48,804 nt of DNA from Aromatoleum evansii (lineage in GTDB: Bacteria > Pseudomonadota > Gammaproteobacteria > Burkholderiales > Rhodocyclaceae): assembly GCF_012910805.1 (NCBI RefSeq), contig NZ_WTVK01000041.1, forward strand, positions 1 to 48,804, written 5' to 3'. A program made the position numbers and the translations under genes. Positions 1 through 14,658 of this stretch are shown here, one piece after another (the stretch's first letter is position 1; each line of letters begins with the position of its first letter). A model generated the notes under the pieces. It was not told the origin of the DNA. It was given only the letters and a program-made list of their open reading frames with translations, and searched no databases.

Positions 1-312
1 ACGTTGCTTGTTACAAACGTGCCACCACACGAGTTTTAGAAAAATCGGCCTGAAACCCGCATGAATACTGAGGCGACTTCGCCAAAATCGTCATTTTTCG
101 GGCTGAACTGTCGAACTCCGGTGGCCAGCGGCTGAAGCGCCCGGGTTGATCCGGGAAGAGGTGACGCGGGACTCTTCGAGGGAGAGTCAGCTGGTCGGCC
201 TGAGCGGAAGTTCAACTGGCTTGCGAAGTCGGTCAGCAATGCACCGAATAGCTGCCTGTGAGTACCGCTGAGCGATAAATCGTAACTGTAAGATCAGGTT
301 TGTCCTTTAGAA
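1..312. other. Left-edge region with no supported gene
   Basis: This stretch lies beyond the 3' end of the sigma-54 activator gene and runs to the window edge. I find no open frame with a ribosome binding site or a recognisable protein. A 67-codon minus-strand frame at 36-239 has low-complexity Ser/Pro/Arg content and no family signature, so I do not call it. The sequence could be the edge of a mobile or island segment, but no integrase, att repeat or insertion-sequence end can be shown from here. Confidence 0.5.
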
Positions 313-3195
313 CTAATAGCGAGGTCGCCTAGCAGTAAGTGTTTCTAAGTACAGATTCACGCGAGGAAGTTCGGCTTTGAACTGTTCTATCTTATGCCGA
401 CGACTTCTCACCCAATCCGGCAACTCGTTAGTTTTAGTCTTTTTATCTTTCAAACGCTCCATAAGCATCGCGTATTGCCGTTGCCGGGTTATCCCCTGAA
501 TGCCAAGGATTTCCTCTAAGCACTTGAGCTCTTGGGGTAGAGGAAGAGCCCCTTGGGCAGCCGCGATGTTTTTGTCGGTAGCCTCTCCGAAGTAGATTTT
601 CGGGAAATTCTCTTCAAGAAAACCATCATCGATAACGGACTGGCCCAAGAGAAACGCTCTCATGATCAGGCTTTGGAGCTCTCTCGCGTTCCCCGGCCAT
701 GAATATCGCAATAGTCGCTTGCGAGCGGAGAATTGTAGTCCGATCTGCATAGACCTTTTATTTTTCGCCAAATCCCTGTTAATCCGGTCGAAAATGCACT
801 CTATGTCCTGTGGGCGCTCTCGGAGAGGTGGAATCAAAATGGGACTCCCCAGCCGCATCTGAAGGTCGAGCCGAAAGGAACCGTCCGCAACCAAATCCGA
901 TACCGGTTTATTGCTGGCTGCGAGAACTACGCCCGCGTACCCAACGGTTTCTTGCTCCTCCTCCCCCAAAGGGGAGAACTCGCCGTGCTCAATGACAGTT
1001 AGAAGCCGAAACTGCACCTCCAACGGATAAGAGTTGATCTCGTTGAGGAACACCGGGCGACTCTGCTTCTTCGCGATCCCGAAAATTCCGTCACGCCGGT
1101 TGGCTGCTCCGGTGAACGAGCCCTTTGCATGTCCGAAAAGTTGCGTCAGGATGAAACGGGTATCCGCCGTTACGCCGAAGCGAACGAAGGGCGATTGGAC
1201 ATGCCGGCTATCCAAGTAATCGATCAATTCATCTTTACCGGACCCCGTTTCCCCCTCTATGAGCAGGGCGATTACGCGGTACGATCCGTTCCGGGTCAGC
1301 TCCAGAGCCTTGCGATAAACGGACTCGAGCTCACCAACTCTTTTCGCAAGCGCCTCGTCATGGGTTACGAATTTGCCAAAGGTATGGAGCCGTCTGCTTT
1401 TCCTTTCCGAAATGACGTTAGCCGCGGTAGCTCCTTTCGTTACGCCGGAAGCTTTCAGGCGACCAGAGAGCTTTACCAGATCTGGTCGAACCCGGTCAAG
1501 AATGCTTGTTTTCACGGCAACGGGCGAAAAGCGTACAAATGGCTCCGATGGGGAGTCCAATTGCGCAAGACGGTCAATTACTTCGTCGCAAGTAATGATC
1601 GACTGGTTCTCCAACAACGACCGAACATGCTGGACAAGCGGAGTCATCACTTCATCGGTCAAGTCCACGCTTTCCGGCTCCCGCTCCGTCTCACTGAAAA
1701 GGTGCTCGAGAAATTGCCGTGCTGGAAAGTCTCGCGCTTTGCCTTTTTCGGCGTAAAGAGCAAAAACATGCGATTCGCTAACTATATCCAAAGCATGTGC
1801 CGCCCCAAGTTGTTCGGAAGCGAACTGCAGGGGCGTAACCGCCGAAGTAATCGAAATGACGGCAGGAGCCATCATAAGCTCCTTGGCTACCCCTGCCTCA
1901 AGTTCGTTACCGGATATTGAGAACGGACGCGGATCCGCAACCGGGACATCTTCCTTTCTCAAAGCGGATACGCATTCGCTTCCGATTGTCCGGTCATTGC
2001 TTAGTACGATGACGTTTCCGGGCTTGCCGCCGGATTTTCGATATCTCTCGATGCGCCTGAGGCACGACCATTTTCCCGGCCATGTCACATCGTCCGCCAT
2101 GAGAGCTTCTTCGACCTTTTGGAGATTCGCGTCTACTTCGCCCCTGTCCTCCCCGCTCAGCGCCAAGCGGGTCATCGCGTCAAGCGTGAAGGCCATTCCG
2201 GCAGTAACTCCGCCGGGGAGTGGGGGTAGGCGAATGTCGCCCTGCAAAAAATGCTCAGTGAGCGGCTTCATTACCCGATCGCTCAACTCCATCCTCAACT
2301 GATCGGTAAAGTCATCACAGGTAAGGGTAAACCAAACGGCTGCTGAGTCGCGCTTCGATCGGTCACCCTTCTGGGAGAACCGGAGTAAGTATATGGACCT
2401 CGTCGCGTCGTTCGGTGGGCCGTCGAAACGTGCCAGTTTCACCTCGGTAAAGCCGAGCATCGAAACCAGGAAATCGCCTGGTTTAAGGGGAACGTCGCGA
2501 CCTTCTTGTCCCCAGGCGCCACGAACGCGCGAATGCGCGATCGCGTGCAGGCGCTCGTTGATCTGCGCCGATGACAGCCATTTCAAAGCCCCTTTGTTCG
2601 GGCGTTCAAGAAGGGGATTCCTCTGCCCTCGCTCTTCGGCGACAACGAATAGTTCGTCGAAGGTGGGTGTCCCCCAATGTTTGCGGTCGCTTCGAAGTTT
2701 TCGGAAGCGGTCTTGGTAGTACCAGCAATCCAGGCGCCGTGCGGCATCGATTTCCAGGCTGCTGACCCTCCATCCATTTGGTGGTTCCCGGTTTATCTCG
2801 TCCAAAGGGGGATACATCCAAACGGATTCAACGGGCGTTACGCCGTAGGCAAAGACGCTGAAGGAATTGGGCTCGTCCATTGGTTTGTAGGAGCGCTCCT
2901 GGTTACCCAAGGGAATGATGCGGCTCAGCTCCGGCGTGAAGAGCGCCATTCGGTACGCCCTGTATTCCTCGACCAACTCTTTGCTGGACTTCTTGCGCGT
3001 GGCGTCGCACAGCACCCTATCCTGCACGAAGACCCGAATGGGTTGCGAACGTGGCCTGCCCAGAAAGGCCAGCAAGTCATCCGGGGCGCCAGGTAACGAC
3101 GTGCCGGTCGGCCTGGCCTCTGGATTGCCCGTGGTTGCTTCGTCGATCCGCAGTTCCAGTAACTTCCGGTTCTTTTCATCAAGAAGGAAATCCAT
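313..3195 (-). CDS. Sigma-54 enhancer-binding AAA+ regulator with novel N-terminal half
   Basis: This 960-residue protein has a bacterial enhancer-binding (sigma-54 activator) AAA+ domain at about residues 610-870. It shows Walker A GETGSGKD (648-655), the sigma-54-contacting loop GSFTGA (692-697; family GAFTGA), Walker B PVFLNE (714-719), an arginine-finger-like FRLDL (774-778) and the sensor II segment WPGNAREL (833-840). Walker B has Asn where the family has Asp. Residues 1-600 match no sensor family I recognise (no response-regulator receiver, GAF, PAS or obvious CARF); residues 393-480 look like an alpha/beta Rossmann-type segment. A Fis-type helix-turn-helix is not obvious at the C terminus (870-960). 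It is divergent from the operon at 3470-10530, which carries a sigma-54 promoter, so it is the likely activator of that operon and probably autoregulated. The start at 3195 has only a weak ribosome binding site. Confidence 0.9.
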   Translation of the reverse strand: MDFLLDEKNRKLLELRIDEATTGNPEARPTGTSLPGAPDDLLAFLGRPRSQPIRVFVQDRVLCDATRKKSSKELVEEYRAYRMALFTPELSRIIPLGNQERSYKPMDEPNSFSVFAYGVTPVESVWMYPPLDEINREPPNGWRVSSLEIDAARRLDCWYYQDRFRKLRSDRKHWGTPTFDELFVVAEERGQRNPLLERPNKGALKWLSSAQINERLHAIAHSRVRGAWGQEGRDVPLKPGDFLVSMLGFTEVKLARFDGPPNDATRSIYLLRFSQKGDRSKRDSAAVWFTLTCDDFTDQLRMELSDRVMKPLTEHFLQGDIRLPPLPGGVTAGMAFTLDAMTRLALSGEDRGEVDANLQKVEEALMADDVTWPGKWSCLRRIERYRKSGGKPGNVIVLSNDRTIGSECVSALRKEDVPVADPRPFSISGNELEAGVAKELMMAPAVISITSAVTPLQFASEQLGAAHALDIVSESHVFALYAEKGKARDFPARQFLEHLFSETEREPESVDLTDEVMTPLVQHVRSLLENQSIITCDEVIDRLAQLDSPSEPFVRFSPVAVKTSILDRVRPDLVKLSGRLKASGVTKGATAANVISERKSRRLHTFGKFVTHDEALAKRVGELESVYRKALELTRNGSYRVIALLIEGETGSGKDELIDYLDSRHVQSPFVRFGVTADTRFILTQLFGHAKGSFTGAANRRDGIFGIAKKQSRPVFLNEINSYPLEVQFRLLTVIEHGEFSPLGEEEQETVGYAGVVLAASNKPVSDLVADGSFRLDLQMRLGSPILIPPLRERPQDIECIFDRINRDLAKNKRSMQIGLQFSARKRLLRYSWPGNARELQSLIMRAFLLGQSVIDDGFLEENFPKIYFGEATDKNIAAAQGALPLPQELKCLEEILGIQGITRQRQYAMLMERLKDKKTKTNELPDWVRSRRHKIEQFKAELPRVNLYLETLTARRPRY

Positions 3196-3212
3196 TGGAG
3201 CACCAATAGAAC

Positions 3213-3258
3213 AAGGAAGTTCCTTAATATATCAGGAAAATCCTTACGATAGGAATCT
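3213..3258. promoter_or_regulatory. Phased inverted repeats, candidate upstream activator sites
   Basis: The sequence shows a perfect 13-bp palindrome AAGGAAGTTCCTT (3213-3225), a second AGGA-AAA-TCCT repeat (3234-3244) and a third degenerate AGGAATCT (3251-3258). The centres of the first two are 20 bp apart, about two helical turns. They lie roughly 70-115 bp upstream of the -24/-12 promoter and just upstream of the divergent activator gene. That is the usual placement for enhancer sites of a sigma-54 activator. The assignment to the activator encoded at 313-3195 is inference. Confidence 0.6.
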
Positions 3259-3327
3259 TATATCAATGCCATGGTTGTTGATGGATACGCTTTACATTTC
3301 AATCGGTTATATGATCGTGCTGCACGG

Positions 3328-3342
3328 TGGCACGCTACATGC
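3328..3342 (+). promoter_or_regulatory. Sigma-54 (-24/-12) promoter
   Basis: The sequence TGGCACGCTACATGC matches the sigma-54 consensus TGGCAC-N5-TTGC with one mismatch in the -12 element and the required ten bases between the invariant GG and GC. Transcription would start near 3354 and leave a leader of about 115 bases before the start codon at 3470. The leader contains a small hairpin (GCCTG-TTTC-CAGGC). The match is strengthened by the sigma-54 activator gene on the opposite strand and the repeats upstream. Confidence 0.8.
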
Positions 3343-3457
3343 GTATAGAAAGGCGCTGCCTGTTTCCAGGCGGCAAGGGGACAGCAAATGCCCCCTGGCT
3401 ACGACACGTTGGGCGGACTAAACCGGGATCTGCCCAAACTGTTCTCAATTTTCCGGT

Positions 3458-3463
3458 AAGGAG
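3458..3463 (+). promoter_or_regulatory. Strong ribosome binding site of the Gly/Ala-rich protein
   Basis: AAGGAG lies six bases before the ATG at 3470. It is the strongest Shine-Dalgarno match in the operon and suggests the first product is made in large amounts compared with the coupled genes behind it. Confidence 0.75.
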
Positions 3464-3469
3464 AAAATC

Positions 3470-3865
3470 ATGGGATTGTTCAGCGCGATTGACGAATTCT
3501 TGTTTGGCCCTCCCGGCGAAGTCAGCGGGGTACTCGGATCGGTTGTTAATGCCGCACTCGAAAACCCAGGCAAAGCCGCACTCGTAGTTGGCGCGACGGT
3601 TGCAACTGGAGGCCTGGCTGCCGTAGCGGCCCCTACGCTTGCGGCCGTAGCCGGATCTGCCGGGTTGCTTGGCGCCGCGAGTACAGGAACGGCAATCAGC
3701 ACCCTTTCTGGGGCAGCTCTAGCGAACGCTTCGCTAGCCGCCGTTGGAGGCGGGGCATTGGCGGCCGGTGGCGGAGGGATGGCGGCCGGTACGGCCGTTA
3801 TTGCGGGAGCGGGAGCCGTGACGGGAGCAGGCGTTTCAACCGGCATGGCAGTTGCGAGCAATTAG
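3470..3865 (+). CDS. Gly/Ala-rich hydrophobic small protein, first gene of the sigma-54 operon
   Basis: I do not recognise this 131-residue protein. Residues 1-35 are less biased and contain an acidic amphipathic start (MGLFSAIDEFLFGPPGE). From residue 36 to the end it is almost entirely Ala, Gly, Val, Ser and Thr with few charges, including repeated small-residue patterns of glycine-zipper type. Such segments insert into membranes or self-associate. There is no classical Sec signal and no Cys. The last residue is Asn, as in the microcin C precursor peptide, but no adenylating MccB-like enzyme is present. It has the best ribosome binding site of the operon and lies first behind the sigma-54 promoter. 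Possible roles are membrane-active effector, ribosomally made carrier for a nucleotide-derived group, or structural protein; none is proven. Confidence 0.75.
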   Translation: MGLFSAIDEFLFGPPGEVSGVLGSVVNAALENPGKAALVVGATVATGGLAAVAAPTLAAVAGSAGLLGAASTGTAISTLSGAALANASLAAVGGGALAAGGGGMAAGTAVIAGAGAVTGAGVSTGMAVASN

Positions 3866-3994
3866 GCACGAGTTATCAGTCCAGGGGGTCGTTCCGCCAG
3901 CGGCAGTGCGCCCCTCGTAGCCCCAGTTGCCACCGCGTTCGGAGCCGTGCGATTGGCTCTTCGTCTGAATATGAAATCCCGGATCTGACACCAA

Positions 3995-4915
3995 ATGAAT
4001 AGTTTCAGCCTTAGACGCCCTTGGCATGGAACGCTCGTGGATGCCCATCGCCACGGGCTTTACGACGTTTCCTCGGACTGGAGCCTTGCCGGGGTGCCTG
4101 TCGAGCAATGGTCGTACGATCCCCGGTTTCTCGCCCATGAGCGTCGGACGAAGTGGCTATTTGGAGACGAGCTTCGCGATGCCCTTCGGCCATGGATCGA
4201 ATACTCGCGCGATGAGGGCGTGGGGACGGTGCTCGACTTTAGCGGCAAGCACGCAAGCGCGGATGTGGAATATGTCTACGGGACGTTCGGGGTGCGATCA
4301 AAAGTCACGGTGCTCTGGAACTCCTGGAGACCGGATATCCGGCCGAGTCCGGCGGTGATGATTCTTCCCGACGAGCGGGAGATCGGGCCCGAAGCGGCCG
4401 AAGCCGCGCGTGCTTTCCTCAAGTCGATGCCAGGAGGGCTGATAACGTTGCATGCAGGGGAGTCCGAGGCTCGCGCCAGAATCGGGAGATCCCGCCTGGG
4501 GCGATCAATCGTCGAATGGCTGGCCATGGAGTCCCTATTGGATTCGCGTACGCTGCTGGTACACGCGAATACGCTGAACTCGAACGATTTCGGTTTGATT
4601 GAGGATAGCGGAGCGGGTGTGGTCATGTGTCCTTTCACGAGGTCCGCGCTCTCCAATCCCGCTCCGACGGTACCTCAACGGGTGCGGGTTTTTTTCGGAA
4701 CCGATGCTCCGTTGGTATCCGGAAACCGAAGCCTAATTGCCCAAGCCATAGCTGAGGCTGGGCGGTGGATAGCCTACGGATGTACCGAAATAGCTGCCGC
4801 GGAGAGCGCGGCGATTGCGCTGACGCGACCGCTAACGGGCGAACCGTGGGAAGTTTCCGGTACGGCGTCCGACTTGGCTGAATTTCTGTTTAACGACCTG
4901 ATTAGGGAGAAATAA
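3995..4915 (+). CDS. Metal-dependent amidohydrolase (deaminase-type fold)
   Basis: This 306-residue protein has the metal-ligand pattern of the amidohydrolase superfamily: HxH at residues 18-20 (DAHRHG), HAGE at 153-156, a further His at 190 (LLVHANT) and an Asp at 237 (FGTDAP). The HAGE motif followed by a distant His and Asp is typical of adenosine/cytosine-deaminase-like members. Those enzymes remove an exocyclic amino group from a base or nucleoside. It stands between the Gly/Ala-rich protein and a thymidylate-synthase-like gene, so a base or nucleoside substrate fits the context. Substrate and reaction are inference. The start at 3995 has a weak ribosome binding site, and a 129-base gap separates it from the gene before. 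Confidence 0.82.
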   Translation: MNSFSLRRPWHGTLVDAHRHGLYDVSSDWSLAGVPVEQWSYDPRFLAHERRTKWLFGDELRDALRPWIEYSRDEGVGTVLDFSGKHASADVEYVYGTFGVRSKVTVLWNSWRPDIRPSPAVMILPDEREIGPEAAEAARAFLKSMPGGLITLHAGESEARARIGRSRLGRSIVEWLAMESLLDSRTLLVHANTLNSNDFGLIEDSGAGVVMCPFTRSALSNPAPTVPQRVRVFFGTDAPLVSGNRSLIAQAIAEAGRWIAYGCTEIAAAESAAIALTRPLTGEPWEVSGTASDLAEFLFNDLIREK

Positions 4916-4916
4916 G

Positions 4917-5528
4917 TTGGGTGCAACCGGCCAATCAGCCAAACTGCTGGGCGAAACCTGGAAAAATCTGCTCCGGCTTGTTATGGAGCACGGCGATGAC
5001 TCCGACCAGGAGATCAGGGAGGCCAGGGCGGTGACTGTGGATTTCACGGTCGAGACTTCGGACATTACCGAACTGGCGGAATACGGCCTCAAAGAAACCT
5101 TGTCCGAGATGCGCAAAGTTTTTTTCACGTCCGAACCAAACCGATTTGGGCATAGCTACAGATCCTGCTGGCGGGGGCCCTTCGGCAGAGAAGATCTTAC
5201 CGACGTTATAGATCTGTTGAAGGATCAGCCGTCGACGAAGCGGGCGCTACTCGTATTCGTTGATCCGACGGGGAAGAAGGTTCCGTGCGTCAACGCGATA
5301 CATTTCCTCATCCGCCATGGACGCCTGGATCTGAGTTATTTCGCGCGGGGACAAGACGTTTATCTAAAGTTCTGCGCGGACGCAATCTGCGTCCACGATT
5401 TCGGCGCGGTGGTTTCCGAGGCGCTCGGCATCAGAATCGGAACAATAACCGGCACCATAAGCTCAGCCCATATCTATCGGAAAGATTTTGAGCGAGTCGA
5501 ATCCATACTCAATCCGGCACGAAAATGA
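4917..5528 (+). CDS. Thymidylate-synthase-like nucleotide C5 (hydroxy)methylase
   Basis: This 203-residue protein aligns without gaps to the C-terminal half of thymidylate synthase. The catalytic Cys is C124 (VPCVNAIHF), the phosphate-binding Arg is R144, D147 matches Asp169, and H185/Y187 match the His207/Tyr209 pair (E. coli numbers). The Asn177 position, which reads the base in dTMP synthesis, is Asp155. Asp at this site marks cytidylate enzymes such as phage T4 dCMP hydroxymethylase, so CMP or dCMP is the favoured substrate; this is inference from one residue. The residue after the Cys is Val instead of His. The protein is shorter than ThyA (264 residues). The start is TTG, one base after the previous stop, with AGGGAG upstream. 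The stop overlaps the next ATG as ATGA. Confidence 0.8.
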   Translation: MGATGQSAKLLGETWKNLLRLVMEHGDDSDQEIREARAVTVDFTVETSDITELAEYGLKETLSEMRKVFFTSEPNRFGHSYRSCWRGPFGREDLTDVIDLLKDQPSTKRALLVFVDPTGKKVPCVNAIHFLIRHGRLDLSYFARGQDVYLKFCADAICVHDFGAVVSEALGIRIGTITGTISSAHIYRKDFERVESILNPARK

Positions 5529-6898
5529 CGATAAGAAAAATTCTATTTGTAGTACCGCGCTCGCTGAATCCCAAGCAAATGTATAAGGAATACCCGCTCG
5601 GCGTTGGATTTATCGGTACGATACTGCAAGAGCGCGGCTACGAAGTGGCGGTTTTCGATCAAAACGCCGAGGGAGGGGACGAGAGTCTGCTGTGGGAGAG
5701 GGTTTCCTCATTTGAGCCGGACGTGGTCGGGTTTTCCATCATCACGCCGAATTATCCGGTGGCGCGCCTGCAAATTGCGGAAATGAAGCGTCGTCATCCC
5801 GAGACGGTCGTTATTGCCGGTGGCATCCACGTAAATCTGTTTCCCAACGATGTATTGTCGGACGGGGCGGACGTTGCGGTGCTCGGAGAGGGCGAGTACA
5901 CCGTATACCGATTGTTGGAGGCGCTGGGCGCTGGGCGTCCGCTTGGGGACATTCAAGGGGTGGCGTTCGCGGAAAACGGTTCGGTTCGCATGAACCCCAA
6001 AGATCCGCGCCCTTTGAGTATCGACGAGTTGCCAATTATCGATCGCAACCTGTATCGGCTCGAGTTATACAACCATCATTCGATGGTGGCTTCGCGAGGC
6101 TGCCCCTACAACTGTACCTTTTGCTGCAACTATACGGGTACCGTCCTTGTAAAGGGCGTCGCTGTTTCAGGGCACGAGAGGGTTATCCGGGAAATGGCCC
6201 TTCTGGAGAGGGATTTCGGCGCCAAGGAGATTTTTTTTGCTGACGACATTTTCTTTCTGAAGAAGAAAAGCATCGTGACGTTCTGCGAGGAATATGCCGC
6301 GACAGGCCTCAGTGCATCGTGGATCGGCCAGTTGAGGGCGGACTCGATGGATTCGTCCGTGGCCGAAGCGATGGCGTCGGCTAATTGCCGACGGGTTTAC
6401 TTCGGGATAGAGAGCGGTTCCGACGAAATATTGAATCGGGCTAGCAAACGAACGACAGTCGAAAAGATGCTTTCCGGGGTTCAATCCGCGTCCAATGCCG
6501 GTATCCGGGTCAAAACCGGATGGATTTACGGCCTTCCCGGTTCCCTGGCAGAACAGCGGAAATCCATCGATCTCATGCTACGCATGCGTCCCCATGAAAT
6601 ATCAATCCATCAGCTGATCCCATTTCCGGGAACTGCCTACTATTCCCGCCCACAGGATTTCGGTATCCGGATAAAAGACCCGAAGGATTTCGAGAGCTTT
6701 TGCTATGGCGGTATAGGCGACAATATTTCATTCGAATATATGTCGCCATCCGAAATGATCGCTCTGCTCGAGAAAACGGCAACCGCCTTGGAACGTGAAG
6801 GCTACGTGAGCAGCGACATCGCAACGCCGGAGGACGAGTTCATCTTCTCCTCCCCGTTACACCAAAAATCAATGAACGTATTCAGAAATAAGTCGTAA
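5525..6898 (+). CDS. B12-binding radical SAM enzyme
   Basis: This 457-residue protein has an N-terminal cobalamin-binding-type Rossmann domain (about 1-165) and a radical SAM core (about 185-400). The 4Fe-4S motif is CPYNCTFC (Cys 193, 197, 200), followed by the EEIFFADD-like acidic segment and a FGIESGSDE motif. Members of this class methylate unactivated carbons or carry out ring rearrangements. A DxHxxG cobalamin motif is not visible in the N domain, which is common in this class. It is translationally coupled to the thymidylate-synthase-like gene (ATGA overlap). A role in remodelling a nucleotide or nucleoside is inferred from the neighbours. No characterised protein can be named as the orthologue. 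Confidence 0.88.
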   Translation: MTIRKILFVVPRSLNPKQMYKEYPLGVGFIGTILQERGYEVAVFDQNAEGGDESLLWERVSSFEPDVVGFSIITPNYPVARLQIAEMKRRHPETVVIAGGIHVNLFPNDVLSDGADVAVLGEGEYTVYRLLEALGAGRPLGDIQGVAFAENGSVRMNPKDPRPLSIDELPIIDRNLYRLELYNHHSMVASRGCPYNCTFCCNYTGTVLVKGVAVSGHERVIREMALLERDFGAKEIFFADDIFFLKKKSIVTFCEEYAATGLSASWIGQLRADSMDSSVAEAMASANCRRVYFGIESGSDEILNRASKRTTVEKMLSGVQSASNAGIRVKTGWIYGLPGSLAEQRKSIDLMLRMRPHEISIHQLIPFPGTAYYSRPQDFGIRIKDPKDFESFCYGGIGDNISFEYMSPSEMIALLEKTATALEREGYVSSDIATPEDEFIFSSPLHQKSMNVFRNKS

Positions 6899-6912
6899 CC
6901 AAGGGTTTGACG

Positions 6913-8613
6913 ATGAAATATCGTGAATTAGGTTCCGTAGATGTAATGGCCACCATCGGGCCCACGCTGGAGACGGCGGAAAGCATTGCTTCGGCGATTG
7001 ATGCCGGGGCGGGATGGTTCCGATTCCCGACGGGCTACCGTAACCGGGACCATGTCGCGCATGCCCTGCTCGTTCGGAAGGTGGCTGAAAGCAAGGGGGC
7101 TGACGTGAAAATCCTCTTCGATCTTCCGTCGGAGCGCTTGAGACTGGGAAGTATCTCCCCGCGGGAGGTTGCACCGGGGGTCGAACTTTCATTTTCCGAC
7201 TCCGACGGAGAGTGTTCCGGCGATCATGTCGGAATTCCGGGGCTGGACAAACTCAGAGGGACTGTCACGCCCGGTCATCGCGTCTTGGCGCTTGACGGCC
7301 GGATTGTCCTGCGGGTCGTGGATTTCGGCTCCGGACTCATGCGTACCGTCGTTGAGCGTGGAAGCGGTCGGTTGCAAACCAGTAATTCGGTCGTCTTTCC
7401 AGATAGCAGTGCCGATTTTTCCTTGTTTGAACCAGCCGATGTCGAGCTATTGCGCAAAGCAGAGGCCGCTGGCCTCGTCCCGGACTGGATAGCGCTTTCC
7501 ATGGTGACGTCGGTCGGGCAATTTAACTCGGCCGTAACGGCACTGCGGGATTTTTTGCCGAATTCGGTTCGATTCATGGCAAAGCTGGAAACGCGGGAAA
7601 TCATCCTCGACTGCGAGGGAATTGTCCAGGCTTCCGACGGCATAATGGTCGCACGCGGCGATCTCGGCTTGGTGGTCAAGCCGGAGGATATGCCGCAAAT
7701 CCAAGAGAGGCTTGTCGAAATTGCTAAAGCGAAAGGCAAGCCCGTCATCGTGGCTACCCAATTCCTCGAAAACTTCGCTTCAAGCGGCGTGCCGCAGCGT
7801 TGCGAGCTGACCGACCTTGCCACCGCGGCGTGGCAAGGGGCGTCGGGGATAATGCTCGGCAAAGAGACCGTGTTTAGCGACCATCCGATCGAGAGCATCG
7901 GGCTCGCGACCCGATGTCTGAAGGCAGCCTCCCGGATTCGACTGCCTATCGCCTTGTTCCTACGCGAACCACGGAATTTGTTTCCGGGAGGCTCGTCGCC
8001 GCTAATTGCCATCGAAGGGGGCAACGGGGTGGGGAAGACGACACTCATAGAGCGCCTCCGGGCAACGCACCCGGACTGGACGATTCGCCGGGGGGTTCCG
8101 GACGCATGGATGGAGCCGCAAATGAAAATGCGGATGATTCGAGACGCGGACTGGATGGCGTCCGCCTTTTACTTCTTTTCCGGTTCCATGGAGCTCAAGC
8201 GCGAGCTGGCAGAATTTATCCAACGGCAAGTTTCGTCACCCAAAATTTGCCTGGACCGTAGTCTTTGGTCGACCCTTGCGGTACACGTGGGCCACGATCC
8301 GAAACGTCTGGCTCAATTGATGCCGATGCTCGAATTGATGGGTGGCCACGTTTGCGTGCCGAACAAAACCGTTGTTCTGATGGCATCGCCAGAAACGTTG
8401 CGGCGACGGGTCTCGGAAAAGGAACCATCCGAGCGCGTATTCGACGAGCTAACCCAAAGCTATGATTATTGGGAACAGGAATCTGCCTTCTACCATTGGT
8501 TGCAGGAGGCTGTCGCCGAGGTTGGGTTACCTCAATTCCAGGTCGAAATCGTGAATACCGATGACCTGTCGTCCGATGAAGTCGTCGAATGTGTTGATAG
8601 GTTGATTTCATGA
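6913..8613 (+). CDS. Pyruvate-kinase-like / thymidylate-kinase-like fusion
   Basis: Residues 1-345 are a pyruvate kinase barrel without the C-terminal allosteric domain. The PEP and metal residues are kept: K224 and E226 (AKLET), D250 (ARGDLG) and T281 (ATQFLE). The potassium and phosphoryl site is degraded: the family RxNxS motif reads R37-FPTG, and the DTKGPEIR segment becomes D70-LPSERLR. Residues 360-566 are a thymidylate-kinase-like P-loop NMP kinase with Walker A GGNGVGKT (369-376) and a CLDRS motif. The fusion could bind PEP and phosphorylate a nucleotide, or transfer an enolpyruvyl or phosphoryl group to it; the real reaction is unknown. The ATG at 6913, seven bases after AAGGG, is preferred over the TTG at 6907. 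The stop overlaps the next gene. Confidence 0.85.
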   Translation: MKYRELGSVDVMATIGPTLETAESIASAIDAGAGWFRFPTGYRNRDHVAHALLVRKVAESKGADVKILFDLPSERLRLGSISPREVAPGVELSFSDSDGECSGDHVGIPGLDKLRGTVTPGHRVLALDGRIVLRVVDFGSGLMRTVVERGSGRLQTSNSVVFPDSSADFSLFEPADVELLRKAEAAGLVPDWIALSMVTSVGQFNSAVTALRDFLPNSVRFMAKLETREIILDCEGIVQASDGIMVARGDLGLVVKPEDMPQIQERLVEIAKAKGKPVIVATQFLENFASSGVPQRCELTDLATAAWQGASGIMLGKETVFSDHPIESIGLATRCLKAASRIRLPIALFLREPRNLFPGGSSPLIAIEGGNGVGKTTLIERLRATHPDWTIRRGVPDAWMEPQMKMRMIRDADWMASAFYFFSGSMELKRELAEFIQRQVSSPKICLDRSLWSTLAVHVGHDPKRLAQLMPMLELMGGHVCVPNKTVVLMASPETLRRRVSEKEPSERVFDELTQSYDYWEQESAFYHWLQEAVAEVGLPQFQVEIVNTDDLSSDEVVECVDRLIS

Positions 8614-9857
8614 TGCAAAAAAACATTCCCCTCGTAACCTCGAATGCCGCGAAGTACGCGCTTTTTCAGCCGATCCTGGAGATGCTTGGCGTTGAATTGG
8701 TCACGCCGCCCCAATCCTGTCATGAAATTCAATCCGACGACTGGGTCGAAATCATCAAGGAGAAGGCCCGCGCTGCGGCCCGATCCCTCGGTCGCCCCTG
8801 CATCGTGGACGATGCGGGACTCCTGCTCGATGCCTACCCCGGATTCCCCGGCGCCTATACGAAGTCGGTAATCCGATCGCTTGGAAGCGATGGGTTGGTC
8901 AGGCTTTTGAATAATCAAAGCCCGTCCGGGCGTCTCATCGCGAATCTTGCATGTTCAGACGGCGTCGAATGCCTTCACTGGATGGGGAGCGTTCAGGGCA
9001 GTCTCGTCCCGAGCGAAGTTCGCGGCGAAGGTCCGGGGCCGCTACATGAGTGGTTCCAACCGACAGTTAAAGGGCCGTTTGCCAAGTCACTTCATCGATT
9101 GAGGGCTTGGCAGGCGCTGGAGCGCGATTGGCACCTTTTGTGCGAGAAGGGATGGGCCTACCCGGCCGACGGCGATCCATTTTGCTACACGCGGGGGCCG
9201 ACCTCGGGTTCGTGCGTGTTCTGTGTGGAACTCTCTGGCGACCCAGGCTCGGTTTTTGAGCAACTGTCGGGGGGGGTGCCGAGGGACAGGGTAGTTCACA
9301 TCAGCACATCGTTTGTGCTCTTGCCACCGTTGGGCCAGTTCATGGAGGGCGGGTTGTTGCTTCTCACCCGTAAGCATGTGAAAAGTATGGCGCACCTTGA
9401 AGCTGGGCAGGTTTCAGAATTGGAGGATCTGATGTCGGAAGTGACGACGAAACTCTGTGGCGCGTATGGCTCGAATCCCGTTTTTTTCGAACATGGGCCT
9501 GGACGCGGACGGGGGAAATCTACGTGCTGCGTGGAGCACGCGCATCTGAATATTTTCCCGGCGGATGTGGATTTAATGCCACTCCTTGGACAATTTCCTG
9601 GTCATGAAATCGGTTCGCTCAATGAACTCGCCTCGCTGCGTGACAATGACGATGATTACATATTTGTGCAGCATAGAGACGGCACGCGCACAGTCCATTT
9701 CTCAGAGGACTTCCCGTCCCAATTCATTCGCCGGGAAATCACCAGGCAACTCGGATATCCGGAGCGATGGCATTGGCGGGACTATCCGGGGATAGCGGAA
9801 CTGCGCGCCACATACGACGGGCTTCAGGGGGGATTCGCCGAACATGTCTCTTTCTGA
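8610..9857 (+). CDS. RdgB/Ham1 pyrophosphatase fused to a HIT domain
   Basis: Residues 1-175 resemble the RdgB/Ham1 non-canonical NTP pyrophosphatase: TSNAAKY replaces the nucleotide-binding TGNxGK, and the catalytic DDSGL motif appears as DDAGL (67-71) with PGFPGAYT after it. Residues 200-340 are a HIT domain beginning CVFC (202-205) and carrying HAHLN (310-314), the HxHxH motif with Asn in the third position. Ham1 enzymes turn modified NTPs into NMPs; HIT proteins hydrolyse or transfer nucleotidyl groups through the central His. I know of no standard protein with both domains. It could process the pathway product or keep modified nucleotides out of nucleic acid. The start overlaps the previous stop; a second in-frame ATG follows directly. 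Confidence 0.8.
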   Translation: MMQKNIPLVTSNAAKYALFQPILEMLGVELVTPPQSCHEIQSDDWVEIIKEKARAAARSLGRPCIVDDAGLLLDAYPGFPGAYTKSVIRSLGSDGLVRLLNNQSPSGRLIANLACSDGVECLHWMGSVQGSLVPSEVRGEGPGPLHEWFQPTVKGPFAKSLHRLRAWQALERDWHLLCEKGWAYPADGDPFCYTRGPTSGSCVFCVELSGDPGSVFEQLSGGVPRDRVVHISTSFVLLPPLGQFMEGGLLLLTRKHVKSMAHLEAGQVSELEDLMSEVTTKLCGAYGSNPVFFEHGPGRGRGKSTCCVEHAHLNIFPADVDLMPLLGQFPGHEIGSLNELASLRDNDDDYIFVQHRDGTRTVHFSEDFPSQFIRREITRQLGYPERWHWRDYPGIAELRATYDGLQGGFAEHVSF

Positions 9858-10530
9858 GGATTTCTACGGCATTCCCGAGAGCGATCCCGGCTTGTATGCC
9901 TCACGCGACATTGACGCTATTGCCCGGCGCTGGGACTCTAAGGCCGCTCAATGGGACTCCGGATTGGAAAGCGAGTCCTGTCACCTTAATGACGGTGACG
10001 CTTACGGGCGTTTTGTCGAATTGGGTCGGCGCTTGGTGCTGGATCGGCAGGAATTGTGCTCGGCGGGCAGCCTCGTCGATCTGGGTTGCGGAACCGGTAG
10101 CGTACTTGCTGGACTTTCCATCCATTTCGGAAACGCCATCGGAATCGACATAAGCCGCGAGATGCTAAATGTCGCTGCTTCGAAAAATATTCGGAACGCG
10201 GAGTGGCGGTTGGAGGACGTTTTCGAGGGGACTTGGAGCGGGATGAGGCACGCCGCAGTGCTTTCCAGGGGGATACTCCTTTCTCACTACGGTAACGAAT
10301 TGGCGTGCCTGCTCATCGCGCAGACCGTTAAGGCGCTTACGCCAGGTGGGTTCGCGTTGTTCGACTTCCTTTCCGTGGAGGCACCGGAGGCTACCAAGAT
10401 ACTCGCGCCCAATAAGACGTATTTCTGTCCCGATTGGCTCGTCGACCAAGCGAAGCGCTTGGGCTCAAGCGGTGCAGCAGTGGCAGGAGACTCCATTTCA
10501 AGGGTTCGTTATTTGATCCTGAAAGATTAG
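9844..10530 (+). CDS. Class I SAM-dependent methyltransferase
   Basis: This 228-residue protein has the methyltransferase motif I VDLGCGTGS (78-86), the acidic loop GIDISREML after strand 2 and a motif-IV-like segment downstream. It is a small-molecule type with no RNA- or DNA-binding domain. It is the last gene of the sigma-54 operon and starts 14 bases inside the preceding frame, so it is translationally coupled. By context it methylates the pathway intermediate or product; the substrate is unknown. Confidence 0.85.
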   Translation: MSLSEDFYGIPESDPGLYASRDIDAIARRWDSKAAQWDSGLESESCHLNDGDAYGRFVELGRRLVLDRQELCSAGSLVDLGCGTGSVLAGLSIHFGNAIGIDISREMLNVAASKNIRNAEWRLEDVFEGTWSGMRHAAVLSRGILLSHYGNELACLLIAQTVKALTPGGFALFDFLSVEAPEATKILAPNKTYFCPDWLVDQAKRLGSSGAAVAGDSISRVRYLILKD

Positions 10531-10857
10531 TTCTGGTTCACGAAGTGCAACTTGCCAATATGCGGATGCTTATTTATCGATTGAAGCTCTCACTGACTTG
10601 CTAATAGGTAGCTTTCTGCCGAACAGAATCGACAAAGCAGGTACCTGCAAATGATCACGAAGGGAAGGTGCCATCCTTCGCCACTGACGAAAGCGGCGGC
10701 TCAGGCTGGATAATTCATCAATGGCGGCAATTTGCTCGATACCCGCCATTCAACAGAGCTAGCGCCACCGTCAGCAAAGGCCGACGACCTGCCAGTCGCC
10801 CCCTGAAAGGCAAGGTTGCCCCTTCGCGCAACTGAATCCGAGCGCGAGTCGTCGACT
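10531..10857. other. Intergenic region with hairpin between island operon and nnrS
   Basis: This region lies between the ends of two convergent genes. It has no supported gene. An inverted repeat AATGGCGG (10720-10727) / CCGCCATT (10743-10750) could form a hairpin with a 15-base loop, but it has no trailing T tract. The base composition changes here from the A+T-richer island to the high-GC chromosome, so this is the best candidate for the right boundary of the island. Confidence 0.5.
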
Positions 10858-12063
10858 CTAGTTGTTCGGAGTTCCGGTCGTGCGCGGGAGGCTGGGCCTC
10901 GCCAGCAGCGCGCCGAACCTGGACAGGTAGATCCCGAACGCCGCCGCCCACAGCAGCGCGGCCGCCGCGATCGCCAACGCGCGGATCTGGGGCATCGACA
11001 GCGCGAGCCGCGCGATCGCCGCGGTGAAGACGAGGGCGCAGGCGACGCGCATCGCCGTCGGCAGCTTGAGCGGGCGGCCGGTATGGCGAAGGCTCACGCG
11101 GGTCATCAGCCCGAGCATCATCATGCCGAGGCTCCCCACCGTGAAGGCGTGTAGCCACGCCGCGTCGGCAACCAGGCCGGTGAGCGCCGCGAGCGCCTTG
11201 AGCGCGAAGGCGAGGATCAGCCATGCAAAGCCGAGATGCATGACGAGGAGAAGAGGCACGTCGGCCACGCGCCAGCCCTGCCAGCGCGCGACGCGCCAGG
11301 CGTGCACGAGGGTGCAGCCGAGGGCGGCGAGGCCGACCCAGCGGGGCGGCGCGCCGGCGAGGTCGAGCGCCGCGAGCACCACGACGAGACCGACCGCGGT
11401 GACGTCGAGCCACATCCGGAACGGCGTCTGATCGCCGCGGCCTTTCTCGCGCAGCGCATTGCCGGTGAAGATCGGCGTCAGCACCCCGCCCTTGAGCACG
11501 TACAAGGTGAGGATCGTGTAGAGGCCGCCGTGCAGCGCGACTCCGGCGAAGGCCTGATTGCCGGCGCCGATACCCAGATGAAATGCGAGGTTCGCCGCGA
11601 AGAAGGCTGCGAGAACCGGTAGCAGCAACAGATACAACCGGTTCGCCGCCCGCAGCAGTTGCGGTGCGACCGTGGCGAACACCAGCGGAAACAGCAGGCA
11701 GTCGGCCGCTGCGGCAAAGCCGGCGGGCAGCAGCGGCATCGCCCAGAACGCGAGCCGGCCCGCGAGCCACGCGGCGACGAGCAGTGCGAGACGGCCGCCG
11801 TGGATTTCCGCGGTGCCGGCCCAACTCGGCAGCGCGGTCAGCACGATGCCGAGGATGATCGCGGTGGAGAATCCGAAGATCATCTCGTGACCGTGCCACA
11901 GCGCCGGCGGCATGTCGCCGACGGGGCCGCTCCACACGCCGAACCAGGCGCCGAGCCAGGCGCACATCAGCAGCGGCGCGTACAGCGTGCCGAGCAGGAA
12001 GAACGGGCGGAATGCGCTCACCCATAGCGCTGCCGGGAACAAGCGGGATGCGGTCGCGAACAT
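10858..12063 (-). CDS. nnrS: NnrS family membrane protein
   Basis: This 401-residue protein is almost entirely membrane-spanning (about 11-12 helices). It has the NnrS pattern near the N terminus (SAFRPFFLLG, WHGHEMIFGF) and the later HAFTVGSLGMMMLGLMTR segment. NnrS proteins are inner-membrane haem- and copper-containing proteins linked to nitric oxide and nitrosative stress tolerance, usually near denitrification genes. No denitrification gene or regulator lies in this window, and no clear FNR/Dnr box is visible before the start. The ATG at 12063 is the natural start. It is a single-gene unit convergent with the island operon. Confidence 0.88.
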   Translation of the reverse strand: MFATASRLFPAALWVSAFRPFFLLGTLYAPLLMCAWLGAWFGVWSGPVGDMPPALWHGHEMIFGFSTAIILGIVLTALPSWAGTAEIHGGRLALLVAAWLAGRLAFWAMPLLPAGFAAAADCLLFPLVFATVAPQLLRAANRLYLLLLPVLAAFFAANLAFHLGIGAGNQAFAGVALHGGLYTILTLYVLKGGVLTPIFTGNALREKGRGDQTPFRMWLDVTAVGLVVVLAALDLAGAPPRWVGLAALGCTLVHAWRVARWQGWRVADVPLLLVMHLGFAWLILAFALKALAALTGLVADAAWLHAFTVGSLGMMMLGLMTRVSLRHTGRPLKLPTAMRVACALVFTAAIARLALSMPQIRALAIAAAALLWAAAFGIYLSRFGALLARPSLPRTTGTPNN

Positions 12064-12364
12064 TTCGTTGGCCGTGAAATTGTTTGGACCGCTTCAGTCT
12101 AGGGGCGATGCGGGGCGGAGTTTCTGTCCGGCGTCAAAAGTGGTGGTGATGGGGTGTTTTTTTGGTTCAGCGCGCCTTCCCAGGAAAGACGCGATGAACC
12201 AAAAAAAGGCCGGTGCAGGCCGTTCATGGAAACCATGATGCGCCTGACACCGGCAAAATCCGCGTTCGGTCGTAAATGGAGTGAAACTGCCGAAACGCGG
12301 GCGGGCATCGCACGCAATGTGCGAAGGCCCAGGAGGACGGAAAGTTCACATTGCAAGGCGATCG
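12064..12364. other. Hairpin-rich intergenic region between eutC and nnrS
   Basis: No gene is supported. Two long stem-loops are visible. The first pairs a 13-base arm TTTTTTTGGTTCA plus GCGCG (12157-12174) with CGCGA plus TGAACCAAAAAAA (12190-12207). The second pairs GCCGGTGCAGGC (12209-12220) with GCCTGACACCGGC (12242-12254) with one bulged A. The stems follow the 3' end of the eut operon on the minus strand, where they may end transcription or stabilise the mRNA. The T and A tracts lie inside the first stem, unlike a classical terminator. Confidence 0.6.
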
Positions 12365-13180
12365 TTACGTATCCTCGGTCAGGAAATTGCCGCCGGGGGC
12401 GGCGAGGCGTTCCGGTGGGGCCTCGACCTCGTCCTTGAGCAGGACGCCGGAAAGGTGCCGGCCGCGGGCTTCTGTCATCAGGTAAAGCAGCTTGTGTGCC
12501 GCAAGCTCGAAACTCATGCCTTCCCGCCGCACGTTGGAGATGCAGTTGCGGCGGGCGTCGGTCGTGCCGACCGCAGGCTGCCACGTAAGATAGAGCCCCA
12601 TGCTGTCGGGCGAACTCAGGCCGGGACGCTCGCCGACCAGGACGACGACCATGCGCGCCCGCAGCGCGACCGCGATCTCGTCACCGATCGCGACGCGGCC
12701 CTGTTCGGCGATGACGAGCGGGGCGATCCTCCAACTCTCGGCCGGCACGCGCGGGAGCATCACGTCCAGAAAGGCGAGGGCGTTTTGTTCGATGGCGAAG
12801 GCGGACAGGCCGTCCGCGATCACGAAGGCGACATCGAAGTCCTTGCCGCCGGGCGCGCGATACGTTTCCAGACGCTCGCGCGAAGCCGCGTCGAGCCTGC
12901 GGCCGAGGTCCGGCCGCTTCAGGTAGGTCGGGCGATCGGCCGCCGCGCTGTGCACCGTCACGACCCCGAGGCCGCGCTCGACCAGTCCGGCGCGCAGCGG
13001 CTCGATCGCGAGCGTGTGATGGACGGCATCGCGGGCCCGCGCGTGGGCGAACTGGAAGTCGAGGTGGGGTTGGGTCGGCAGGCTGCTGCCGGCGCGGCCC
13101 AGCGCGATGCGGGCCTGCGTGAAGCGGCGCAGCGTCCCCCAGGCGTCGGGGATGACGGTATCGGTGATCCGGTCGGTCAT
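12365..13180 (-). CDS. eutC: Ethanolamine ammonia-lyase light chain
   Basis: This is the small subunit (271 residues) of adenosylcobalamin-dependent ethanolamine ammonia-lyase, which converts ethanolamine to acetaldehyde and ammonia. The recognisable family features are FTQARIALGRAG near the N terminus, HARARDAVH, the FVIADGLSA region, the VGERPGLSSPDSMG segment and the C-terminal RRNCISNVRREG. It starts ten bases after eutB. No eutA reactivase and no carboxysome-shell genes accompany it, so the enzyme would act free in the cytoplasm. The length is slightly below that of the enteric subunit (295 residues). Confidence 0.95.
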   Translation of the reverse strand: MTDRITDTVIPDAWGTLRRFTQARIALGRAGSSLPTQPHLDFQFAHARARDAVHHTLAIEPLRAGLVERGLGVVTVHSAAADRPTYLKRPDLGRRLDAASRERLETYRAPGGKDFDVAFVIADGLSAFAIEQNALAFLDVMLPRVPAESWRIAPLVIAEQGRVAIGDEIAVALRARMVVVLVGERPGLSSPDSMGLYLTWQPAVGTTDARRNCISNVRREGMSFELAAHKLLYLMTEARGRHLSGVLLKDEVEAPPERLAAPGGNFLTEDT

Positions 13181-13190
13181 GGCCGCGTCC

Positions 13191-14582
13191 TCAGCTCAGG
13201 TTCGCCAGCGCGCGACGGAAGGGGCCGGGAAGGTCCTTGGCGAGCCTCATGGCCTCACCCGGCGCGAAGATGCCGACCTTGCGCAGCCATGCCTCGAACT
13301 CCGGCGCCGGGCGCAGGCCGAGTACCTGGCGGATGTACATCGCGTCGTGGAAGGACGTCGTCTGGTAGTTCAGCATCACGTCGTCCGAGCCGGGGATGCC
13401 CATCACGAAGTTGATGCCCGCGACCGACAGCAGGGTCAGCAGCATGTCCATGTCGTTCTGGTCGGCTTCGGCGTGGTTGGTGTAGCAGACGTCGCAGCCC
13501 ATCGGCACGCCGAGCAGCTTGCCGCAGAAGTGGTCTTCGAGGCCCGCGCGGATGATCTGCTTGCCGTCGTACAGGTATTCGGGCCCGATGAAGCCGACGA
13601 CGGTATTGACGAGAAAGGGTTTGAACTTGCGCGCCACCGCGTAGGCACGCGCTTCGCACGTCTGCTGGTCGACGCCGTGGTGGGCGTTGGCCGACAGGGC
13701 GCTGCCCTGACCGGTCTCGAAATACATCACGTTGTCGCCGACGGTGCCGCGCTTGAGCGACAGCGCGGCCTCGCGTCCTTCGGCGAGCACGGCGAGGTTG
13801 ATGCCGAAGCCGGCGTTCGCGGCCTCGGTGCCGGCGATCGACTGGAACACGAGATCGACCGGCGCACCGCGATTGATCGCCTCGATGCTGGTCGTGACGT
13901 GAGTCAGGACACAGGACTGGGTCGGGATCTCGTATTTTGTGATGATCGCGTCGAGCATGCGGATCAGCGTCGTCACCGCCGAGACGCTGTCGGTCGCGGG
14001 GTTGATGCCGATCACCGCGTCGCCGCTGCCGTACATCAGGCCGTCGACGATGCTGGCGGCGACGCCGCTCGGTGCGTCCGTCGGGTGGTTCGGCTGCAGG
14101 CGGGTGGAGAGCCGCCCCGGCAATCCGATCGTGTTGCGGAAGGCCGTGACGACGCGACACTTCTTGGCGACGAGGATCAGGTCCTGCACGCGCATGATCT
14201 TGCTGACGGCGGCCGCCATCTCGGGCGTCAGACCCGGCGCCAGCGCGGCGAGAGCGGCCTCGTCGGCCTCCTCGGACAACAGCCAGTTGCGGAAGTCGCC
14301 CACGGTCAGGTGGCTGACCGGCGCGAACGCCGCGGCATCGTGCTCGTCGATAATCAGCCGGGTGACTTCGTCGATCTCGTACGGGATCAGCGCCTCGACG
14401 AGAAAGCGACGCAGCGGCAGCTCGGCCAGTGCCATTTGCGCAGCGACACGCTCTTCGTCGCTGGCGGCCGCGATCCCCGCGAGGTAGTCGCCCGAACGGG
14501 CCGGCGTCGCCATGGCCATCAGGCTCTTGAGGTCCGCGAAGTGGTAGGTATGCCCATCCACAGTATGCGAGTAGCGGGTCAT
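13191..14582 (-). CDS. eutB: Ethanolamine ammonia-lyase heavy chain
   Basis: This is the catalytic large subunit (463 residues from the ATG at 14582; E. coli EutB has 453). Highly conserved stretches include RVVTAFRNTIGLPG, NPATDSVSAV, FQSIAGTEAANAGFG, YFETGQGSALSA and GCDVCYTNHAEADQND, which build the substrate- and cobalamin-binding barrel. It works with EutC (next gene) on ethanolamine imported by the Eat-type permease upstream in the operon. The earlier TTG at 14603 is less likely because the ATG begins the conserved N terminus. Confidence 0.96.
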   Translation of the reverse strand: MTRYSHTVDGHTYHFADLKSLMAMATPARSGDYLAGIAAASDEERVAAQMALAELPLRRFLVEALIPYEIDEVTRLIIDEHDAAAFAPVSHLTVGDFRNWLLSEEADEAALAALAPGLTPEMAAAVSKIMRVQDLILVAKKCRVVTAFRNTIGLPGRLSTRLQPNHPTDAPSGVAASIVDGLMYGSGDAVIGINPATDSVSAVTTLIRMLDAIITKYEIPTQSCVLTHVTTSIEAINRGAPVDLVFQSIAGTEAANAGFGINLAVLAEGREAALSLKRGTVGDNVMYFETGQGSALSANAHHGVDQQTCEARAYAVARKFKPFLVNTVVGFIGPEYLYDGKQIIRAGLEDHFCGKLLGVPMGCDVCYTNHAEADQNDMDMLLTLLSVAGINFVMGIPGSDDVMLNYQTTSFHDAMYIRQVLGLRPAPEFEAWLRKVGIFAPGEAMRLAKDLPGPFRRALANLS

Positions 14583-14658
14583 GGGGGCGGTATCCGATTC
14601 CAAAACAGTTTGTTGCGGCCCGCCGCCGACGCAGCGGGCCTTGTCGTGAGCGGATTTC

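Follow-up and report, generated by a model that had tools for sequence, protein, structure and literature searches.

What is made, and to what end, by the eight genes that occupy positions 313–10530 of a 48,804-nucleotide stretch of Aromatoleum evansii DNA? The stretch, referred to below as the window, is contig NZ_WTVK01000041.1 (C266) of a 5.94-Mb genome assembled in 330 contigs; in it the gene of a sigma-54 activator (P0001) stands divergent from seven co-directed genes (P0002–P0008), which an initial annotation had read as an operon making a modified pyrimidine nucleotide. The cassette is genuine and coherent, and within the searches made it is undescribed, no account of this gene set having been found in the open-access literature (subscription papers and most preprints lie outside this coverage). 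As to its function, the reading that we tentatively favor, with a little less than even confidence, is that of a horizontally moved, sigma-54-switched cassette that would serve the intracellular synthesis of a modified cytidine nucleotide, and its sequence makes a role in defence or signalling appear more likely than that of a secreted antibiotic.

That the genes belong together is indicated by their layout and by its recurrence elsewhere. All eight were confirmed as open reading frames, and the gaps between successive genes from P0002 to P0008 (129, 1, −4, 8, −4 and −14 bases) bear out the tightly packed operon facing its activator that had been proposed; an ATG at 6913 may be an alternative start of P0006, and a simple scan revealed no terminator 3′ of the operon. 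P0002, set apart from P0003 by the 129 bases, is also the sole gene not common to the other copies. Two such copies were recovered by a pattern scan of the genome collection with P0006, which detects close relatives only: among the 24 stretches matched, two encode a relative, one in a Rhodocyclaceae metagenome-assembled genome (locus L005) and one in a Betaproteobacteria metagenome-assembled genome (L006). In both, the regulator and the six enzyme genes are found in identical order and orientation, with protein identities of 78–96% (87% and 79%, respectively, for P0001), so that the co-occurrence by which the initial annotation proposed to judge the set holds for these seven genes and fails for the first gene of the operon, the slot of which is filled in L005 and L006 by a different Gly/Ala-rich protein (22% Gly, 26% Ala). 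The DNA similarity of the window to L005 extends from 319 to 3245 and from 3939 to 10531, that to L006 from 244 to 3246 and from 3938 to 10587; homology stops, in other words, at the edges of the cluster, and the gap inside is the first-gene slot. The recurrence of the gene order in both loci, the end of homology at the edges and a dN/dS of 0.05–0.26 across the seven shared genes (21 pairwise comparisons, gapped alignment columns having been removed beforehand) place the gene set beyond chance.

The pattern is that of a cassette that is maintained whole and has apparently changed location. In the case of the window copy, mobility is deduced from the shared edges and from the low GC content of the cluster genes (0.53–0.59 vs 0.67 past 10.6 kb), whereas the other two copies lie in a conjugative setting, with genes of the TraI_2, TraU and S26-peptidase families no more than 6 kb from L005 and an AcaB-type gene near L006. 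The families concerned are scarce among related bacteria: a P0003 profile matched only the window's own genome among 399 of the order (E = 1e-12), a P0007 profile matched 5 of 369 genomes of the class, four of them via the Ham1 part only, and a profile of the HIT part of P0007 matched, at E = 1e-6, 11 of 398 genomes of the phylum, namely that of the window, two strongly (G744, G624), one partially (G274) and seven through the HIT core only.

Sigma-54 control of the operon, also part of the initial annotation, is supported by a conserved −24/−12 site and conserved palindromes and by the presence of RpoN in all three genomes carrying the cluster. The sigma-54 interaction AAA domain of P0001 matches PF00158 with E = 2.3e-28 (99 bits, cut-off 20), the loop that usually reads GAFTGA in activators of this type reading GSFTGA here. 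The divergent region between P0001 and P0002 comprises 274 bases and contains, at 3328, TGGCACGCTACATGCG, with GG and GC at sigma-54 spacing; the site recurs at the matching alignment place and in the same orientation in the three loci, with two mismatches in the window and in L005 and none in L006. With up to two mismatches allowed, 11 such sites are found on both strands of the whole window, and ~0.03 would be expected on one strand of the 274-base region. Upstream of the site lie palindromes of the form AGGAA-N2-TCCTT, two in the window, one in L005 (6274; a second is imperfect) and two in L006 (6173, 6193), and none occurs elsewhere in the 48.8 kb of the window or in the 21.7 and 19.3 kb of the other two loci. 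The cue would be taken by the N-terminal part of P0001, in which residues 1–520 gave no significant Pfam match, residues 385–520 no match among solved structures and the N-terminal part as a whole no tblastn match on plasmids. The impression that residues 385–520 form a deoxyribosyltransferase-like Rossmann domain found no support. The activator RtcR (CARF-AAA-HTH) carries a CARF domain at its N terminus; no CARF sensor was found in P0001, the PADLOC RtcR profiles matching residues 609–875 only.

The nature of the product is suggested above all by P0004, whose closest solved relatives are a bacterial thymidylate synthase (E = 5e-8) and a cytidine monophosphate (CMP) 5-hydroxymethylase taken as MilA (E = 1.3e-7). 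The catalytic residues are kept (the nucleophile Cys124, Glu60, His185 and Tyr187), and in the alignment P0004 has Lys, Gly and Asp where MilA has Lys133, Ala176 and Asp186, while Arg, Ser and Asn stand there in ThyA of E. coli and in the housekeeping ThyA of the three cluster genomes, and the dCMP hydroxymethylase of phage T4 (gp42) has Arg, Ser and Asp. According to PMC5175136, Lys133 and Ala176 of MilA are associated with the use of ribose, and Asp186 with that of cytosine, whereas in the thymidylate synthase family the users of deoxynucleotides have Arg and Ser, and the users of uracil Asn, at the corresponding places. Because of the residues at these specificity places, the substrate of P0004 is likely a cytidine nucleotide, and probably CMP specifically; the modified pyrimidine of the initial annotation is thereby upheld and narrowed to a cytidylate, by the active site of this one enzyme. 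A role of P0004 as a stand-in for ThyA was rejected, a housekeeping ThyA being present beside it in all three cluster genomes.

This likeness to MilA raises the alternative of a secreted nucleoside antibiotic or antivitamin of the mildiomycin/bacimethrin type, with its transporter encoded elsewhere, which we regard as rather unlikely. MilA and BcmA share with P0004 the thymidylate synthase family, the Lys and Asp of the specificity places and the catalytic Cys, His and Tyr; on the other hand, their chains measure 325–342 amino acids (vs 203) and have Ala176 where P0004 has Gly. The analogy with these pathways, drawn already in the initial annotation, stands at the residue level for P0004 only and fails for the remainder of the set, as no transporter, exporter, glycosidase or tailoring family of this kind was matched among the eight cluster proteins (Pfam, NCBIfam; P0002 has no family match of any kind). 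In favor of this alternative are the MilA-like residues and a 5.7-kb E. coli plasmid (NZ_CP075671.1; L018, 827–5372), where a five-gene operon that looks like a nucleoside natural-product cluster, found in 1 of 5426 E. coli genomes, joins genes for a thymidylate-synthase-like protein, a DUF84 inosine-triphosphatase-like protein, a relative of P0003 from the amidohydrolase superfamily (hhalign E = 3e-6), a formyltransferase and a major facilitator superfamily (MFS) transporter. Against secretion, the P0006 fusion would drive the product to the triphosphate, and triphosphates cross membranes poorly; furthermore, to our knowledge, sigma-54 control and conjugative neighbors are unusual for secreted nucleoside antibiotic pathways.

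The other domains named in the initial annotation were recovered by Pfam or by profiles, in the case of the amidohydrolase P0003 through weak matches and motifs and in that of the HIT domain through a dedicated profile. P0006 joins a pyruvate-kinase barrel (Pfam, E = 1e-39), in which an alignment over the barrel finds the AKxE, GDLG and ATQxLE segments kept and the NFSHG segment altered, to a kinase-like part in which a P-loop (GGNGVGKT) and a DRS motif can be read; the pyruvate-kinase half of the proposed fusion is thus confirmed, and the other half proves nearer to deoxynucleoside kinases (PF01712, E = 4e-7) than to thymidylate kinases (3e-4). Alone, this kinase part gave no solid match among solved structures (best E = 0.04) and none by tblastn on plasmids; a search of phages with the barrel returned 21 records. 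A fusion of these two domains could take a nucleotide from the mono- to the triphosphate. P0005 combines a B12-binding domain (PF02310, E = 1e-19) with a radical S-adenosylmethionine (SAM) domain (8e-16), and its solved matches are an enzyme of the apramycin pathway (1e-14), 9ccb (1e-11), CysS (8e-11), OxsB (1e-8, residues 57–335), TokK (8e-7) and a tryptophan methylase (7e-5). OxsB is likewise a B12 radical SAM enzyme, active on a nucleotide in oxetanocin biosynthesis; its match is remote, however, and weaker than those of the AprD4-type enzyme and CysS, and the OxsA-type phosphohydrolase of that system was not recognised in the cluster. Viral contigs offered three remote radical SAM loci (26–28% identity to P0005), and a Streptomyces clavuligerus match of P0005 is read as sitting in an apparently unrelated biosynthetic cluster. 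P0003, devoid of a Pfam match, resembles most closely HutF-like deiminases of the formimidoylglutamate type (NCBIfam 1e-7, hhalign 1e-6) and has conserved HxH, HAGE, H and TDAP motifs; kinship with the E. coli deaminases Add, GuaD or CodA was rejected on hhalign probabilities of 0.3–2.3%, a weak negative given that the profile consists of three close sequences. Neither the P0003 nor the HIT profile found a relative among viral contigs. P0008 is a class-I methyltransferase of generic type (Pfam, 3.5e-10).

The same enzymes could supply a modified nucleotide for incorporation into DNA or RNA, where the altered base would protect the mobile element. That thymidylate-synthase-like hydroxymethylases serve the modification of T4 DNA (gp42), and that phage-type thymidylate synthase and thymidylate-kinase profiles match P0004 and P0006, speak for this explanation; the ribo-type residues of P0004, however, point away from deoxynucleotides, and no polymerase, glycosyltransferase or restriction family was matched by Pfam or NCBIfam among the eight proteins, so that we hold base modification to be very unlikely.

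A different comparison is suggested by P0007. Its Ham1 domain (Pfam, 3e-17), with SN..K and DDAG invariant in the three copies, has as its closest solved relative KomB of the Kongming defence system (E = 7e-11); its second part has no significant Pfam match, yet a profile built from this part and its relatives matches CWF19L1 (E = 2e-9) together with HINT and FHIT chains, which makes it a HIT domain of the CwfJ/CWF19L1 type, with the motif HAHLN. In Kongming, as described in the review PMC12948488, dITP is made from dAMP by KomA and nucleotide kinases and is bound by KomB. A second-messenger immunity of this kind, with the enzymes as the source of an odd nucleoside triphosphate, Ham1-HIT as its sensor and the Gly/Ala-rich protein as the effector that kills or stalls the cell, would agree with the kinship to KomB, with the presence of an amidohydrolase and nucleotide kinases in the cluster and with the exchange of the first gene while the remainder is kept. 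We nevertheless consider it unlikely. The Ham1 segment retains an intact DDAG where KomB has EHTG and is fused to HIT, the kinases are encoded within the set, several further enzymes and a sigma-54 switch are present, and the effector role of the Gly/Ala-rich protein is based on composition, P0002 having no family match. KomC of Kongming belongs to an NAD-depleting family, of which no member was matched among the eight proteins (the rest of the genome being outside the search).

Two other systems invite comparison. Viperin acting with a CMPK2-type kinase, a radical SAM enzyme paired with a nucleotide kinase on a cytidine nucleotide, resembles the cluster in this pairing and in the presumed substrate; viperin, however, lacks the B12-binding domain of P0005, and the cluster has several further enzymes. 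PDC-M51, a PADLOC defence candidate, consists of two genes, for a radical SAM protein and then a thymidylate-kinase-like protein, echoing part of the cluster's set in minimal form. A clear example (L055, 7812–9634, genome G566), in which the second gene directly follows the first, matches PDC-M51A with E = 5e-171 and PDC-M51B with E = 1e-72, compared with which the matches of P0005 (1.5e-16) and of the P0006 kinase (3.8e-5) are far weaker. The notion of PDC-M51 as a B12 system was rejected, the radical SAM protein of that example having no B12-binding Pfam match. Judged by its domains, the cluster is not assignable to Kongming, viperin, PDC-M51, mildiomycin/bacimethrin or RtcR, because it has no KomC-like family, a B12-binding domain, weak PDC-M51 matches, a single MilA-like enzyme and no CARF match.

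The favored reading, an inducible cassette for a modified cytidine nucleotide acting inside the cell, can be cast as a sequence of steps. P0001, on receiving its cue, would bind the palindromes and open the −24/−12 promoter; P0004 would place a one-carbon group, most likely hydroxymethyl, on C5 of CMP; P0005, P0008 and P0003 might then elaborate or deaminate the product, in an order and by a chemistry that we infer only loosely. The kinase-like part of P0006 would convert the monophosphate into the diphosphate and its pyruvate-kinase part, with phosphoenolpyruvate, the latter into the triphosphate, which Ham1-HIT could hydrolyse, trim or sense for self-protection or read-out. Since no exporter was matched, the product would probably act in the producing cell, where it might be turned against invaders as a chain-terminating or corrupting nucleotide or might serve as a signal setting off the exchangeable Gly/Ala-rich protein. 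An intracellular role is favored by the absence of an exporter match, by the conjugative setting of L005 and L006 and by the KomB-like Ham1 domain, and defence by this setting, the KomB-like domain, the inducibility and the exchanged first gene. Bacterial immunity and chemical warfare are increasingly found to use unusual nucleotides, and a single cassette appears here to hold the whole chemistry from CMP to the triphosphate, plus the switch and a clearing or sensing enzyme; if so, the gains would be a modified cytidine nucleotide not known before, the kinase fusion that charges it and a pathway inducible from a defined promoter. In its most specific form the proposal is that of a mobile innate-immune pathway whose own enzymes, on the sigma-54 cue, would make a new 5-substituted cytidine triphosphate from CMP, to be read or cleared by Ham1-HIT, with exchangeable Gly/Ala-rich membrane effectors; this form, rather unlikely in our estimate, would if true represent a new class of nucleotide-based immunity.

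Several observations weigh against an intracellular cytidine nucleotide pathway with a role in defence. The match of P0004 to thymidylate synthase is modest (PF00303, E = 1.5e-10), and the Gly at its ribose-specifying place differs from the Ala of MilA; the best solved match of P0005, the apramycin-pathway enzyme, is not a nucleotide enzyme; and the AlphaFold2 models of P0003 (pLDDT 37) and of residues 1–620 of P0001 (pLDDT 35) are too low in confidence for a fold search. The PADLOC matches of the cluster proteins are weak or generic: the PDC-M51B profile matches 213 of 378 genomes of the phylum and 7 of 14 controls, a breadth for which these matches were rejected as proof of defence, and those of the Gly/Ala-rich proteins are perhaps due to composition. 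Seven neighboring proteins (two in the window, five in L005/L006) yielded one PADLOC match, a methyltransferase of L006, and no defence gene was seen beside the window copy among the neighbors scanned; the genes 3′ of the cluster (10858–16113) are the ordinary NnrS, EutC, EutB and an amino-acid permease. At its left end the cluster is bordered by the contig end, which the sequence marks as an assembly junction. The known copies are three, all betaproteobacterial, and outside them no compared locus matches more than one query protein at E = 1e-4, families being shared rather than close homologues.

Table 1. Features of the cluster and its control region (window coordinates; aa, amino acids).
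Feature	Position	Strand	Basis and remarks
P0001, sigma-54 activator, 960 aa	313..3195	−	Pfam; ~610-aa N-terminal part without family match; GSFTGA loop
Palindrome AGGAA-GT-TCCTT, presumed activator site 1	3214..3225		sequence motif
Palindrome AGGAA-AA-TCCTT, presumed activator site 2, 20 bases after site 1	3234..3245		sequence motif
Sigma-54 type −24/−12 site TGGCAC-N5-ATGC, facing operon	3328..3343	+	2 mismatches to TGGCACN5TTGCW
P0002, Gly/Ala-rich hydrophobic protein, possible membrane-acting effector	3470..3865	+	composition
P0003, amidohydrolase-superfamily protein, nearest HutF-like iminohydrolases	3995..4915	+	weak profile matches and motifs
P0004, short thymidylate-synthase-like enzyme, predicted cytidylate 5-hydroxymethylase	4917..5528	+	Lys/Gly/Asp at substrate places
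P0005, B12-binding radical SAM enzyme	5525..6898	+	Pfam; CPYNCTFC = CxxxCxxC
P0006, pyruvate-kinase barrel (~aa 11–342) and deoxynucleoside/thymidylate kinase-like domain (~aa 362–568)	6907..8613	+	Pfam
P0007, Ham1 NTP pyrophosphatase-like domain (~aa 5–151) and CwfJ-like HIT domain (~aa 200–415)	8610..9857	+	profiles
P0008, class-I SAM-dependent methyltransferase	9844..10530	+	Pfam

At the left end of the window, positions 1–127 are identical to the start of another contig (C328), the open reading frames of which are read as glycosyltransferase-like. A nucleoside pathway is also possible on the Geobacillus plasmid pGeo12a (L016, 4192–9704), where two thymidylate-synthase-like proteins, each carrying Asp at the cytosine position, are accompanied by QueA, NUDIX and AAA-type genes, with ABC transporter genes farther along.

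In clusters that are otherwise unrelated, the CwfJ-like HIT domain is found repeatedly next to nucleotide enzymes, and it could be a handle for finding more pathways. Among the 25 matches listed of a plasmid search with 102 records in all, four were obtained through the HIT part, and in all four the HIT gene adjoins nucleotide-type enzymes, two of them sharing one layout. On Rhizobium pRL1 (L007, 3663–11571) thymidylate-kinase, phosphoribosyl-pyrophosphate-synthetase-like, short-chain-dehydrogenase-like and PfkB genes lie near the HIT gene, along with a class-V aminotransferase (cysteine-desulfurase-like), Glycos_transf_3 and methyltransferase-like genes, a run that may make a sulfur-bearing nucleotide. 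In two further loci (L031, 8286–9426; L032, 8360–9639) the HIT relative adjoins what reads as a small membrane-like protein, followed in L032 by an 813-aa protein without a Pfam match at 0.01. In Parabacteroides (L008, 5346–10632) a long Thy1-domain protein, AAA, HIT and PRA-PH stand in a row and are followed by dihydrofolate reductase. The layout shared by two records is that of Streptomyces plasmids (L009, 8441–11737; L060, 7441–10741), in which a dCTP-deaminase-like gene, the HIT gene, an unassigned gene and a cysteine desulfurase gene form a row, L060 additionally carrying a phage portal gene.

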